Positions 14,549 to 32,936 of a DNA stretch of 32,936 bases are shown here, piece by piece. The stretch lies in assembly GCA_025358085.1 (NCBI GenBank), contig JANYKT010000062.1, positions 1 to 32,936 of the forward strand. Direction: 5' to 3'. Positions within the stretch are counted from its first letter, which is position 1, and the number at the start of each line of letters is the position of its first letter. The DNA is from Deltaproteobacteria bacterium. Its GTDB lineage: Bacteria; Myxococcota; Myxococcia; Myxococcales; 40CM-4-68-19. The translations under genes and the position numbers were made by a program. Under the pieces are notes generated by a model. The model was given only the letters and a program-made list of their open reading frames with translations, ran no database searches and was not told the origin of the DNA.

Positions 14549-16114
14549 TTGAGCCTCTCCGGCAACCTCGAGGACGTCTCCGTCGCGGACGCGCTGCAGT
14601 TCATCCATCTCGGTGGCCGGACCGGCACGCTGACGCTGACCCTGGGCGAGACCCGCGCCGAGATTGGCTTCCACCAGGGCCGCATCGTGAACGCCTGGGG
14701 GCCGGGCTCCAAGCGGCTGGGAGAGCTCCTGGTCGACGAAAAAGTCATCGACCAGCCCACCCTTGATGCGGCGTTGGCGCAGCAGAGTGCCGAGCACCCG
14801 CGCCGTTCGCTCGGGCAGATCCTGGTGGCCACGAAGGCGCTCGCGCCCGAGGTCATGTACCGCGCCGTGCAGCAGCAAATCGAGCGGACCGTCCACGACC
14901 TGGTGGCCTGGTCGCAGGGCACCTTCCAATTCGCGCTGGACGATCTCAAGCCCATCGACGACATCGCTGTTTTCCCCGGCGACGTCATCGGCCACCTCAA
15001 TCTCGACACGCAGATGGTGCTGCTCGATGCGCTGCGCATCTTCGACGAGCGCAACCGCGACGCGCAGCTGGCCAAGACACCCACGCCAGCCCTGGGCGGT
15101 CCCAAGGTCGCGCCGGCGCCGATGGTCCCGCCGCCTCCTCCCGCGGACATGCTCGCTGCCGTGCCGCGACCGGCTCTCGCGCCCGCCACCGCGACCGATC
15201 CGGTGGGACAGCGGCTGCGTCTGCAGATCATCTCTTCCGATCGCCAGCTTGCCGAGAAGCTTGCGCAGGGGATGCCCGCAGCCGAGGCCACCGTGGTGCG
15301 GCTGACGCTGCGCGAGGCTGGAACGCCGCCACCGGGCGAGCAGCCGCCCATCGTGCTCATCGATCTGCGCGGCGGCGGCATCGCGCTCGACGCCATCACC
15401 GGACTTCGCCGCGCCCGGCCCCGCGCCTCCATCCTCGCGGTGGTCGACGCTGGCGTCCCGCTTTCGCAGGTGTACCAGGCGGGCGCAATGGCCGCGGTTC
15501 CGGGCGACATCAACATCATCCTCGCCTGCTTTCGTTCGATGGCCGCCAACCGGCGCGACCTGCTGACCGGCGGCGTCCGGACCGAAAAGGTCGACGCCAG
15601 CTTCGCCAAGCTTCGCCGCATCGTCGGCGACCTGCGCTCGGGGCTCATCTCCACCACCATTTCGCTGAGCCTGATGAACATCATCAGCGAATCGGTCGAG
15701 CGCGCGGTGCTCTTCCTGGTGCGCCGCGACGGCCTGACCGCGCTGGGCGCGTTCGGGAACAGCCACGATGGCCAGCCGCTCGCGCATGTCACCCGCGGTC
15801 TCAAGCTCCCGCTCACCGAACAGAACGCGCTGGTCGACAGCCTGGCCGACGGCCAGGTGCGGTCCTCGCTCTTCGACGACGCGCACTTTCCGGCCAGCTT
15901 CGTCGGCCTGGTGGGGCGGCCGCGCTCGTCCCAGTGCGCAATCTTTCCCGTGCTCGGCGGGTCGCGGGTCATCGCTGTCGTCTATGCAGACAATGGACTT
16001 TCCAATCGCGCCATCGAGGAGATCGACATCCTGGAGCTGGCGGCCGCGCAGGCTGGCCTTGCCTTCGAAAACGAGCTGCTTCGTCGCCAGGCCGCCCAGC
16101 CGCGGCCGGCTTGA
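14549..16114 (+). CDS. PATAN (DUF4388)/degenerate receiver/GAF scaffold protein
   Basis: Protein of 521 residues. The PATAN domain is at about 1-165: SLSGNLEDVSVADALQFIHL, GRTGTLTLTLGETRAEIGFH and GRIVNAWG, the standard GxL-x-xSLxDLLQ and HxGRIVxA pattern. A Pro-rich linker (175-215) follows. About 222-340 looks like a receiver fold: LQIISSDRQL (SSD where receivers have DD), IVLIDLRGG with Asp272 at the acceptor place, and ILAVVDAG. The acidic pocket is incomplete, so phosphorylation is doubtful. The GAF-like domain is about 345-510 (SLMNIISESVERAVLFLVRR; QCAIFPVLGGSRVIAVVYAD). Start TTG at 14549, since upstream sequence overlaps the GAF gene. The next gene starts at its stop. Confidence 0.85.
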   Translation: MSLSGNLEDVSVADALQFIHLGGRTGTLTLTLGETRAEIGFHQGRIVNAWGPGSKRLGELLVDEKVIDQPTLDAALAQQSAEHPRRSLGQILVATKALAPEVMYRAVQQQIERTVHDLVAWSQGTFQFALDDLKPIDDIAVFPGDVIGHLNLDTQMVLLDALRIFDERNRDAQLAKTPTPALGGPKVAPAPMVPPPPPADMLAAVPRPALAPATATDPVGQRLRLQIISSDRQLAEKLAQGMPAAEATVVRLTLREAGTPPPGEQPPIVLIDLRGGGIALDAITGLRRARPRASILAVVDAGVPLSQVYQAGAMAAVPGDINIILACFRSMAANRRDLLTGGVRTEKVDASFAKLRRIVGDLRSGLISTTISLSLMNIISESVERAVLFLVRRDGLTALGAFGNSHDGQPLAHVTRGLKLPLTEQNALVDSLADGQVRSSLFDDAHFPASFVGLVGRPRSSQCAIFPVLGGSRVIAVVYADNGLSNRAIEEIDILELAAAQAGLAFENELLRRQAAQPRPA

Positions 16115-27819: not shown

Positions 27820-29241
27820 TCAGAGCGAGCGCAGGAAGTTCAAGATGTCCTGCCGGTCCGAGGTCCCCAGCAAATTGAAGACTTGCAACACAAGATTCGC
27901 CTCGGAAGCACAGGCAACACCGTCAGGCGTGCTCATCTGGCCCGGCGCGCAGGCGGGGTTCTGGCTCGAATGGGCCTGGATGGCGTTGAGCAATCCGCCA
28001 TTGAGAGGAGTCGAGCGCCCGTCGTGGAGGAAGAAGATGCGTTGGCCCACGCCCCACAAGGGGGCAGAGCGGAACTCGTCGGCGCCGGCGGAACCCTGAC
28101 CGACATGGTCGGCGAGTCCCGGTCCCATGTGATGAATCGCGAAATCGGAGAACGGATGATAGGGAAGACCGCCTTGCCCGGTGGAGTTCGACTCCTCGGT
28201 GGTGAGCGTCGCCGAATGGCAAAGAGCGCAGCCAACGGAAGTGAATAGCTGCTGTCCGTGCACCTGGCTCGTGCTCGTGGTGGTTGCCACGGGCGCCGCC
28301 GAGAGCCGCATGAAGGCGGCAAAGTTGACCAGGTCCGAGGACATTTCGCTCAAGGTCCCGGTCAGGCCCTTGGTGTGCGGATTGTGAATGTTGCTCGAGT
28401 CCTCCGGCGTCGGATTCAGCTCGCAGCCCGCGGCCATCGCCCGCTCATTGCCAAAGATCTCGTTGGTCACTCCCTGTTCGACGTTGTAGGCCTCGCCGGC
28501 AAAGAGCAGCAGCGACTTGTTCTGCGCCTTCCAGCCGAACCGCGTAATCGTCCCGTCATTGCCATTGGTATTGAACCTCCCGCCGATCTGGTACAGGGCC
28601 CGCAGGCTCGCAGTGCTGTTCAGGTTGTCGATCAAGGCGTTGTCCGACGTATTCTCGACGAGGCCGAGGCCGAAGACCGGCGTGGGAATGCGAAAGATGA
28701 CGTTGTTTCTCGAAAGCTGGGTGACGAAGTCGGGCTGCGACGCCGTGCAAGTCGGCGCGTCCACCCTGCCTGCGATGGTGTAAAGGCCATGCACGCCGCC
28801 GTCGTTGCTGCCGTCGGGATTCCGAACGAAGCGCGCCTCGCGGACGGGCCCATCGGGCTGGATGAACGGAGGCACCAGCTGGTTGCGGCCCGGCAGCCGG
28901 TCGAGCGTCGCGAACGATACTTGCGGATTGGGCACGCGAAACTGGCCAAGCGTGGGATGCGGGCTCGTGCCACCGATGTCGGGCTGCGCGTGGCAGGAGG
29001 CGCAGCTATTGGCATTGAAGGTCGGCCCAAGGCCCACGCCAGGTTCGTTGAGAAGGGCTCCGGAAACCGAATCGATTTCCTTGAAGCGTGCCCGCGCGGC
29101 GAGGAAGAAAGTCACCTCGTCGGTAGAGAGGCCCGAGGCCGGTCCACCGGCACTGCTCGGCCCTCCGCGCGGGCCAGGGTCGGTTTGGGCCACTGCGGCG
29201 AACGATAAAACGACACACAATGAAAAGACAACCGAACGCAT
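27820..29241 (-). CDS. Di-haem oxidoreductase (DHOR, putative peroxidase family)
   Basis: Exported c-type cytochrome of 473 residues. The signal peptide MRSVVFSLCVVLSFAAVA is followed by CASCH (C80-H84) and CALCH (C338-H342), the two haem c sites. The motif FAIHHMGPGLADH (~368-380) and PLWGVGQRIFFLHDGRS (~393-410) are hallmarks of the DHOR family, related to bacterial cytochrome c peroxidases and the thiosulphate dehydrogenase-like group. Located in the periplasm, it would oxidise or reduce small molecules; the substrate is unknown. ATG at 29239-29241 is preceded by AGGGG. The upstream DNA is distinctly AT-richer than the rest of the window, and no cytochrome maturation gene is nearby. Confidence 0.88.
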   Translation of the reverse strand: MRSVVFSLCVVLSFAAVAQTDPGPRGGPSSAGGPASGLSTDEVTFFLAARARFKEIDSVSGALLNEPGVGLGPTFNANSCASCHAQPDIGGTSPHPTLGQFRVPNPQVSFATLDRLPGRNQLVPPFIQPDGPVREARFVRNPDGSNDGGVHGLYTIAGRVDAPTCTASQPDFVTQLSRNNVIFRIPTPVFGLGLVENTSDNALIDNLNSTASLRALYQIGGRFNTNGNDGTITRFGWKAQNKSLLLFAGEAYNVEQGVTNEIFGNERAMAAGCELNPTPEDSSNIHNPHTKGLTGTLSEMSSDLVNFAAFMRLSAAPVATTTSTSQVHGQQLFTSVGCALCHSATLTTEESNSTGQGGLPYHPFSDFAIHHMGPGLADHVGQGSAGADEFRSAPLWGVGQRIFFLHDGRSTPLNGGLLNAIQAHSSQNPACAPGQMSTPDGVACASEANLVLQVFNLLGTSDRQDILNFLRSL

Positions 29242-30542: not shown

Positions 30543-31709
30543 CTACAGCGCGACGTCCTTCCGTACATCGCCTTTGTAGAGCTTCTCCAGCAGAGCGGCC
30601 GGCTCGGCAGCCTCGGGCGAGTCGGGCAGCACGATTTGCAACACCACGTAGAGGTCCCCGCGCGGCGCGCCGGTCGAGCCCGAGCGCAGCGCCGGCAGGC
30701 CGCGGCCGCGCAGGCGCAGCTTGCGGCCACTCTGGGACACGGGCGGTATCTTGAGCTTGACGGGTCCCTCGAAGGTGGGCGCGGTGACCTCGGCGCCGTT
30801 CAGCGCCTCGCCCACGGTGATGGGCAAATCGAGCGAGAGGTCGCGCCCGCTCACGCGCACCGTCGCGTGCTCGCGCACGGTGATGCGCAGGTACAAGTCG
30901 CCGGACTCGCCGCCGCGCTCGCCCAGGCCACCCTGTCCGGGCAGGCGCACGCGCGAGCCGGTCTCGACGCCCGCGGGGATCTTCACCTTCAGCCGCGCGA
31001 CCTCGGTGACGGTGCCCTCGCCGCCGCAGCGCGGGCAGGGGTCCTTGATCTCACCGCTGCCCATGCAGCGCGGGCAGGTGCCGCGGAAAAGGCCGCCCAT
31101 CTGCACCTCGCCGCTGCCGTCGCATTGCGGGCACTTGGCGGGCTTGCTGCCGGGCCGCGCGCCCGTGCCGTGGCACTCGGCGCAGCGGGCAGGGCGGCTG
31201 ACCGAGATTTCGCGCTCGGCCCCCAGCACGGCGTCGCGCAGGTCCACCTCGATCGCGGTCTCAGCGTCGTCGCCCGGCGCTGGCTCGACGCGCGCGCGCC
31301 GGGTCCGGCCAGCCTGGCGCCGCGAGAAGATGTCGCCGAACATCGAGCCCAGGTCATTCGGGTCGAAGCCCTGGCCGCCTCCAAAGCTTTGCCCGCCCCC
31401 AACGCCGCCGAAGCCAGAAGCCCCGCCCCGCCTGCCAAAATCGGCCTGCTGCTTCTGGTACTCGCGCACCTTGGCCTCGTCGAAGCCCGGCTTTGTCGCC
31501 ATCTCGCCGAACTCGTCGAAGAGCGCGCGCTTCTTCGGGTCACCAACGGCGTCGAAGGCGCCGGAGACGTCCTTGAATTTGTCCTCCGACTTCTTGTCGC
31601 CCGGGTTGACATCCGGGTGCAGCTTCTTGGCGAGCTTGCGGTACGCCTTTTTGATCTCCTCGGCGGAGGCGCTCTTGGACACACCGAGGGTGGCGTAAGG
31701 ATCCTTCAT
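30543..31709 (-). CDS. dnaJ: Chaperone protein DnaJ (Hsp40)
   Basis: Co-chaperone stimulating the DnaK ATPase, 388 residues. The J domain (1-70) contains HPD at 31-33 (KKLHPDVNPGD). A Gly/Phe-rich region (~94-116, SGFGGVGGGQSFGGGQGF) is followed by a zinc-finger region with four CxxCxGxG repeats (CAECHGTG, CPQCDGSG, CPRCMGSG, CPRCGGEG, about 171-230). The substrate-binding C-terminal beta domains hold IPAGVETGSRVRLPGQGG and GRKLRLRGRGLP. It is a full type I DnaJ. The ATG at 31707-31709 starts MKDPYATLGVSKSASAEEIK. No dnaK or grpE is present in the window. The gene is divergent from the SurA-like gene, 87 bases apart. Confidence 0.93.
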   Translation of the reverse strand: MKDPYATLGVSKSASAEEIKKAYRKLAKKLHPDVNPGDKKSEDKFKDVSGAFDAVGDPKKRALFDEFGEMATKPGFDEAKVREYQKQQADFGRRGGASGFGGVGGGQSFGGGQGFDPNDLGSMFGDIFSRRQAGRTRRARVEPAPGDDAETAIEVDLRDAVLGAEREISVSRPARCAECHGTGARPGSKPAKCPQCDGSGEVQMGGLFRGTCPRCMGSGEIKDPCPRCGGEGTVTEVARLKVKIPAGVETGSRVRLPGQGGLGERGGESGDLYLRITVREHATVRVSGRDLSLDLPITVGEALNGAEVTAPTFEGPVKLKIPPVSQSGRKLRLRGRGLPALRSGSTGAPRGDLYVVLQIVLPDSPEAAEPAALLEKLYKGDVRKDVAL

Positions 31710-31796
31710 GGGGCGGACCGTAACACCGGACCGAGGGTGGTCAATCAGCTGGATCTTCAATTGACCTGCGAATGGGGCGCTCGCTACCCTCTGGTC

Positions 31797-32264
31797 GTGC
31801 GCCTGACCAACCTCCTGATCGTGCTCATCGCCGCCTCGCTGCTGGCGCTTCCTCTCCACGCCCAGGGGGAGCGGCAGCTGCTCGACGAGGTGGTGGCGGT
31901 GGTCGAGACGCACGCCATCACGCTCTCCGGTCTCGCTGCCGAGACGCGGGTCAAGCTGGTCGAGGTGCAGGGCCCGGCCGCCGCCGATGCGGTGCCGGAC
32001 CGCAAGCTGCTTGCGGCTTCGCTGCGGCGCACGGTCGAGGAGCGGGTGGTGCTCGGCGAGGTTGAGCGGCTCAAGCTCTTCGACCTCGAGCGCAGCGAAG
32101 TGGACAACCTGCTGGCCCGGCTGCGCGCCCGGTTTCCCAGCGTCCAGAAGTACGAGGCCTTCCAGCGATCGGTCGAGCTCACCGACGACGAAATCGGCGC
32201 CATCCTGGCCCGCGAACTGCGCGTGGCGCGGTACCTGGACAACCGGCTCAAGCTCGCCGCCTAG
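31797..32264 (+). CDS. SurA-N-like periplasmic protein, truncated by an in-frame TAG
   Basis: First 155 codons of a gene for an exported protein related to the SurA/peptidyl-prolyl isomerase N-terminal chaperone domain. The signal peptide MRLTNLLIVLIAASLLALPL is followed by HA-Q cleavage. The mature part has the SurA-type opening LLDEVVAVVETHAITLSGL, and long helices ELTDDEIGAILARELRVARY and LDNRLKLAA before the TAG at 32262-32264. The usual SurA N-domain continues into a final helix; here the same frame goes on for 65 codons to a TGA at 32460-32462, one base before the rimI start. So the original gene was probably 31797-32462, and the TAG is a nonsense mutation, a recoding site or a sequencing error. 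GTG at 31797 chosen because the signal peptide starts there. No parvulin domain is present in either form. Confidence 0.7.
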   Translation: MRLTNLLIVLIAASLLALPLHAQGERQLLDEVVAVVETHAITLSGLAAETRVKLVEVQGPAAADAVPDRKLLAASLRRTVEERVVLGEVERLKLFDLERSEVDNLLARLRARFPSVQKYEAFQRSVELTDDEIGAILARELRVARYLDNRLKLAA

Positions 32265-32462
32265 CTGCGCGAGAGCGAGCTTGCCGAGGCCACGGGCGGG
32301 CGAAAACTCGGCAAGTCCGACCGCGAGGCGCTGCGGCTGCAACTGCAAAAAGAGAAATACCTGCGGCTGCTCGCCGAGCTTTTGCAAGACCTGCGCAAGC
32401 GCGCTGACGTGCGCGTGCTGGACCCGCTCGAGGCGGACGCGCCGCTCCAGAGGGCCGACTGA
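32265..32462 (+). other. In-frame continuation of the SurA-like gene after the TAG
   Basis: Sixty-five sense codons in the same frame as 31797-32264: LRESELAEATGGRKLGKSDR, then EALRLQLQKEKYLRLLAELL, then QDLRKRADVRVLDPLEADAP, then LQRAD and a TGA stop. About 85 percent of these codons end in G or C, as in genuine genes here. The predicted helix ending in RADVRVLDPL matches what follows the helical SurA_N domain in related proteins. The next gene (rimI) begins one base after the TGA, as expected if the original gene ended there. No internal ATG/GTG with a ribosome site convincingly restarts translation. Confidence 0.65.
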
Positions 32463-32463
32463 G

Positions 32464-32936
32464 ATGGCCGTGCGCGCGCGGGCCAGTCTCGAGATCCGGC
32501 GCATGCGTCCGGATGATCTCGAAGAAGTCATGGTGATCGAGCGGGCCGCCTTCAAGCATCCATGGTCCACGGAGCTGTTTCGCCGCGAGCTGGAGCACGA
32601 CTGGAGCACCATCCTCCTCGCTGTCGAGCCGCTCACCAGCGCCGCCAAAGGCGAAAGCCGCATCGTCGCGTTTCTCATTTATTGGCTGGTGCACGACGAG
32701 GTGCATATTCTCAATGTAGCGGTCTCGGCGGAGCACCAGCGCAAGGGCATCGCGCGGACGCTGATGGCCGAGACCGAACGGCGCGCGAACCTCGCCGATG
32801 CGTCGCTGATGACGCTTGAAGTCCGCCGATCGAACCTGGGCGCGCTCGATCTCTACCGCGCGTTCGACTACCGCGCCGTCGGCGTGCGGCCCAACTACTA
32901 CGCGGACGAAGGCGAGGATGCGATCGTGATGGTGAA
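32464..32936 (+). CDS. rimI: Ribosomal-protein-alanine N-acetyltransferase RimI, 5' part (runs off the window)
   Basis: GNAT acetyltransferase that acetylates the N-terminal alanine of ribosomal protein S18 in E. coli. From the ATG at 32464 I read MAVRARASLEIRRMRPDDLE, EVMVIERAAFKHPWSTELFR, then ILNVAVSAEHQRKGIARTLM, the acetyl-CoA-binding motif, LEVRRSNLGALDLYRAFDYR and VGVRPNYYADEGEDAIVMV. All RimI hallmarks appear: F-x-HPWS, ILNxAV, Q/RxxGxA, LEVRxSNxxAxxLY and Y-Y. An insertion TSAAKGESR lies in the loop near 57-65. The end of the window cuts the gene at about codon 157, near its expected end. One base separates it from the stop of the continued SurA frame. Confidence 0.9.
   Translation, partial: MAVRARASLEIRRMRPDDLEEVMVIERAAFKHPWSTELFRRELEHDWSTILLAVEPLTSAAKGESRIVAFLIYWLVHDEVHILNVAVSAEHQRKGIARTLMAETERRANLADASLMTLEVRRSNLGALDLYRAFDYRAVGVRPNYYADEGEDAIVMV

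Follow-up and report, generated by a model that had tools for sequence, protein, structure and literature searches.

Nonsense-type bacterial pseudogenes are among the described systems closest to the locus reported here, which shares with them, as they appear in one account (Cooley and Wright 2024, PMC11017572), a single internal stop, an intact conserved frame and a draft genome as its source. There is no difference in kind, but the gene affected here is near-universal in the sampled relatives, and its real loss would be less usual. The same account reports that assembly errors lie behind many putative pseudogenes. A stop inside a frame can also be read as sense: in some crAss-like phages UAG is reassigned to Gln (genetic code 15; PMC9523058). 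The present locus resembles this reassignment in having TAG where same-family relatives have Gln, but is unlike it in that RF1 is present, no tRNA with a CUA anticodon was found among the 46 tRNAs recovered, and TAG is an ordinary terminator.

The window (the whole stretch of DNA analysed, 32,936 nucleotides) is one whole contig (G000:C114) of a draft genome of 5.42 Mb in 217 contigs, 98.11% complete with a contamination estimate of 3.07%. The draft appears to be a metagenome-assembled genome, as is a same-family record, L099. Near the end of the window, a GTG at 31797 opens a plus-strand frame of 155 codons that meets an in-frame TAG at 32262-32264. Past the TAG, the same frame comprises 65 sense codons and closes with a TGA at 32460-32462, which a single base (G 32463) separates from the rimI ATG at 32464. 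This layout agrees in every particular with the earlier note, which had described a SurA-N-like gene split by TAG and continuing to within one base of rimI. The features are:

30543..31709, minus strand: dnaJ-like gene (labelled by eye), oriented divergently to the interrupted one
31797..32261, plus strand: the 155 codons of the interrupted gene that precede the TAG, opening with what by eye resembles a signal peptide and including a SurA-N-like helical region with a weak SurA_N_3 match
32262..32264, plus strand: in-frame TAG (amber) codon; a sense codon in all 29 aligned relatives
32265..32459, plus strand: the 65 in-frame sense codons past the TAG, with homology to the C-terminal region in relatives
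32460..32462, plus strand: TGA, end of the full frame
32464..32936, plus strand: rimI-like gene (label from the earlier note), running off the contig end

The surroundings of the gene are conserved: of the 29 relative loci, 28 have a rimI match downstream of it and 25 have an upstream dnaJ match on the opposite strand; the dnaJ match is downstream in two loci (L028 and L029) and absent from two (L013 and L023). Other copies from the same family, for example L003, L004 and L008, likewise stop 0-1 base ahead of the next ATG. A restart site near the TAG is not likely, because the only in-frame ATG, GTG or TTG codons after it are a TTG at 32382 and GTGs at 32409 and 32415.

To place the gene among its homologues, we used the read-through protein as query over 60 genomes, namely the source genome and 59 relatives, none of the relatives belonging to the same genus. 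All 60 genomes gave matches, and an ortholog-like copy was found in 58/59 relatives at E <= 7.7e-12; the gene is single-copy in the source genome. In G011 (same family, 61% complete) the only match is weak and probably represents a paralogue. The match extends to query residue 208 or beyond in 57 of the 58 ortholog-holding relatives. In G059 it ends at residue 155; the open frame reported there is 355 aa and, if it contains the match, by arithmetic continues for at least 38 codons. A stop inside the ortholog match occurs only in G033 and G043, where TAG stands at the natural end of the gene (219 and 218 codons of match, respectively), and none of the 58 ortholog-like copies is interrupted at the position of our TAG. 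A scan of genome contigs returned, among the matches listed, L099 and one match from Polynucleobacter, which covers residues 1-84.

We aligned the 29 relatives, of the 59, that were given loci; ten are of the same family, whose eleventh member is G011. All 29 continue for at least 63 residues past the TAG position, L020 having 63 before its own stop, and none stops at that position, which upholds the earlier claim that related proteins run on. The aligned same-family relatives have CAG (Gln) at the TAG column in 10/10 cases; over all 29 the residue is Gln in 14, Arg in 10, and His, Lys, Thr, Glu and Ser in one each. Given CAG in the same-family relatives, the TAG is explained by one transition, the CAG-to-TAG change that the earlier note had offered as an example. 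Three columns that are invariant in 12 sequences (R200, V205 and R206) all lie past the TAG. Because the relatives align across the TAG without a break, we take the homology as decisive in indicating that the upstream and downstream parts belong to one gene. The ratio of differences after the TAG to those before it was 1.42 for the source genome, compared with 1.28 (sd 0.27) for 45 pairs of relatives. The part after the TAG thus looks free of clear acceleration or relaxed constraint. As its rate of change does not clearly exceed that seen in relatives, the lesion appears recent on that scale, in line with the recent loss proposed before.

The open frame alone is weak evidence here, because 324 of the 802 genes that were called across 984 kb of the genome have at least 65 open codons beyond their own stop (the target is not among the 802, the caller having overextended the dnaJ-like gene to 30546-32504). 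In codon usage, the 65 codons after the TAG score 22.7, against a mean of 18.0 (sd 9.7) for the last 65 codons of 727 genes. For the 324 open after-stop stretches the mean was -13.5, with 7.1% scoring at least 22.7; a following gene that shares the frame can also produce a high score after a stop. In their codon usage the 65 codons match coding sequence, as the earlier mention of the usual codon bias had it.

At the protein level a close known system is the SurA core chaperone module, made up of the N domain and the C-terminal helix. The C-terminal helix has a role in SurA, which is the basis for expecting loss of function when it is removed. In Pfam, the 155-residue part matched SurA_N_3 at E = 0.0053 (17.0 bits, below the 27.2-bit cut-off) and SurA_N at 13.2 bits (below the cut-off of 30.8), and the 221-residue read-through matched neither a SurA family nor a PPIase (parvulin) family at E <= 1. 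No family was returned by the NCBIfam search. A search of PDB sequences with the family profile gave weak matches only, the best being GDAP1 chains (E 0.064), with SurA 2pv3_A at E 0.85. A structure model, built on a two-sequence alignment, was all-helical (mean pLDDT 64.3, pTM 0.54). Foldseek with this model found nothing at E <= 0.001 (SurA 9hg9_F was at rank 27, E 4.0), and a second look at 780 chains with VIA-align placed two SurA core chains at the top: 8pzv_F (Z 7.0, rmsd 6.6, 150 aligned; model residues 32-205, SurA residues up to 424) and 9hg9_F (Z 5.8, rmsd 7.2, 148 aligned; model residues 36-210, SurA residues up to 428). Both alignments use a low-confidence model, and Z scores of 7.0 and 5.8 are within the tool's warning range and may mean only a common helical arrangement. 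The first residues look, by eye, like a signal peptide. Together these observations suggest that the gene encodes a small helical protein destined for export. It may be a SurA core that lacks PPIase domains, which we offer as a weak lead. The previously given SurA-N label is weakly supported, with SurA_N_3 under its cut-off in the upstream part and the best structural matches, though to SurA cores, at Z 7.0 and 5.8. The likeness to the SurA core module lies in that upstream match and in the top structural rows, whereas the 221-residue frame is unlike SurA in having no PPIase match, and its fold is not established at such Z and pLDDT values.

We consider the best explanation to be one recent nonsense codon in an otherwise intact single-copy gene, with a probability of roughly 0.9 (0.92) that covers a true allele and an artefact together. 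That the TAG is a true allele of the organism is, in our estimate, a little better than an even bet. Under the nonsense reading, the simplest event would be a C-to-T transition at a Gln codon, giving TAG. Translation would be expected to end at residue 155, in view of RF1 and the lack of a suppressor among the tRNAs found. The TAG falls within the long helix 130-165 of the model and, since on the SurA-core reading the helix corresponding to the C-terminal helix of SurA would be removed, the 155-residue product without its C-terminal part would probably be non-functional. With the rimI start one base after the TGA, ribosomes that no longer reach this TGA would leave coupling lost, and rimI may perhaps be less well translated.

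A homology survey of 118 homologous places (34,611 codons) with 726 query proteins of G003 and G002 gave five internal stops. The target alone was strongly similar on both sides (29/30 and 17/30 residues); it is a planted control and no chance draw, the G002 stretch having been chosen for holding its homologue. A second stop, in L124, had flanking similarity of 12/30 and 10/30 residues, and the remaining three stood either where a match begins or within a poor match in L115. The L124 case is a Y_Y_Y-GGDEF protein with an in-frame TAG at L124:10094-10096 (G000:C38:10094-10096), inside its GGDEF domain; the Pfam match to this domain runs across the TAG, with 129.5 bits when read through and 108.6 for the part before it. 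In L115, positions 15442-15807 hold two TGA codons in a stretch that is similar to a G003 protein and transposase-like by eye. Searches of the whole genome with seven families returned 5 interrupted rows in 299 matches (the weakest HATPase_c rows not being listed):

GGDEF: one TAG in 17 matches, the L124 gene again
ABC_tran: one TAG in 70, at G000:C214:102638-103084 (150 of 171 first-look candidates scored)
Sigma54_activat: 0 in 35
Pkinase: one TGA in 37, at G000:C181:20340-21137
adh_short_C2: 0 in 31
HATPase_c: 0 among the matches listed (84 matches, weakest not listed)
MFS_1: two TAG rows in 25, at one place (G000:C122:7796-8963), both weak and one under the cut-off

The same kind of search gave 0/82 in the control genome G003 (three families) and 2/188 in G002 (four families; one TAG and one TGA). 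A few genes of the draft thus carry an internal TAG or TGA, not amber only, and on these small numbers internal stops are not clearly commoner in the source genome than in relatives. Coding-like stretches directly after stops were seen in 31/802 genes (TAG 17/217, TAA 8/109, TGA 6/476), a rate at which TAG exceeds TGA but not TAA; the corresponding counts were TAG 11/242, TAA 2/73 and TGA 2/231 in G003, and TAG 3/47, TAA 0/23 and TGA 5/110 in G002. Of the 30 cases viewed (the window's minus-strand case being omitted), most appear by eye to be the next gene in the same frame, and some, for example two in L046, were not placed; the Pfam check among the after-stop cases covered L124. The numbers are small, and nothing in these surveys calls for recoding.

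A base-calling, assembly or strain-mixture error, with the population keeping the intact gene, is a sub-case of the nonsense reading, and we hold it to be a serious possibility, though one we would bet against. The source is a 217-contig draft with a 3.07% contamination estimate, further genes of the draft have internal stops, and putative pseudogenes often arise from assembly errors, according to PMC11017572. Real loss is also unexpected of a gene that is present in 58/59 relatives and single-copy here, and this speaks for an artefact or for a consensus that took up a minority allele. On the other side, internal stops at 5/299 (weakest HATPase_c rows not listed) are not clearly commoner than the 0/82 and 2/188 of the two control genomes. 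Natural shortening, in which the gene truly ends at 155 residues or became two genes and the short product works, seems improbable. The upstream part is the better conserved, and SurA_N_3 matches it alone, weakly; yet no aligned relative ends at the TAG position, the invariant R200, V205 and R206 sit after it, in the model, though a poor one, helix 130-165 would be truncated and helix 173-202 would be missing, and the first in-frame ATG, GTG or TTG past the TAG comes only at 32382.

Amber recoding or efficient suppression, whereby TAG is read as Gln and the full 221-residue protein is made, was among the options of the earlier note and now appears very unlikely. It would account for the Gln at this column in 10/10 aligned same-family relatives, and in the source genome four of the five interrupted family rows are TAG (two at one place), as is the second interruption found by homology, the same GGDEF gene. 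However, RF1 (prfA) is present without an internal stop (TIGR00019 478.8 bits, cut-off 423.25), and a CUA anticodon occurs in 0/46 tRNAs (Rfam matches, all read with ARAGORN), an incomplete set in which no tRNA-Ile was labelled. With the tRNA search relaxed to E <= 10, just four further matches appeared, all weak. TAG terminates 217 of the 802 called genes in the 984 kb sample (TGA 476, TAA 109), so that TAG is not rare as a terminator. A TGA interruption occurs too, and, if transitions are weighted 4:1 (our own choice), codon usage leads one to expect TAG from about 65% of the single-base changes that create a stop. We set recoding aside on the intact RF1, the lack of a CUA tRNA among those found, the common use of TAG as terminator and the interruption surveys. 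We give equally little credence to a variant in which a conserved exported chaperone-like protein would be made in two lengths by leaky amber reading, with TAG otherwise a stop and rimI coupled to read-through. The tRNA result is qualified further by an unassigned tRNA-like call that ARAGORN made at L080:242-337, with a two-base anticodon (tg), and that is not among the 46 Rfam matches.

The likeliest account of the nonsense codon is thus a recent loss of an ordinary kind or an error in the sequence, and not a new reading of the genetic code; the finding is ordinary whether allele or artefact. The locus serves mainly as a warning: annotation should treat both halves as a single interrupted gene, and one internal stop in a draft genome should be taken neither for recoding nor for proof that a gene has been lost. 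A real allele would be the one interrupted copy observed of a gene held by 58/59 sampled relatives (the 59th, 61% complete, gave only a weak match). It would amount to a naturally occurring knockout of a SurA-core-like protein about which little is known, with dnaJ-like and rimI-like genes next to it. Elsewhere in the window, a minus-strand ORF at 27820-29241 (473 aa) contains CxxCH motifs and by eye resembles a secreted haem-binding oxidoreductase.
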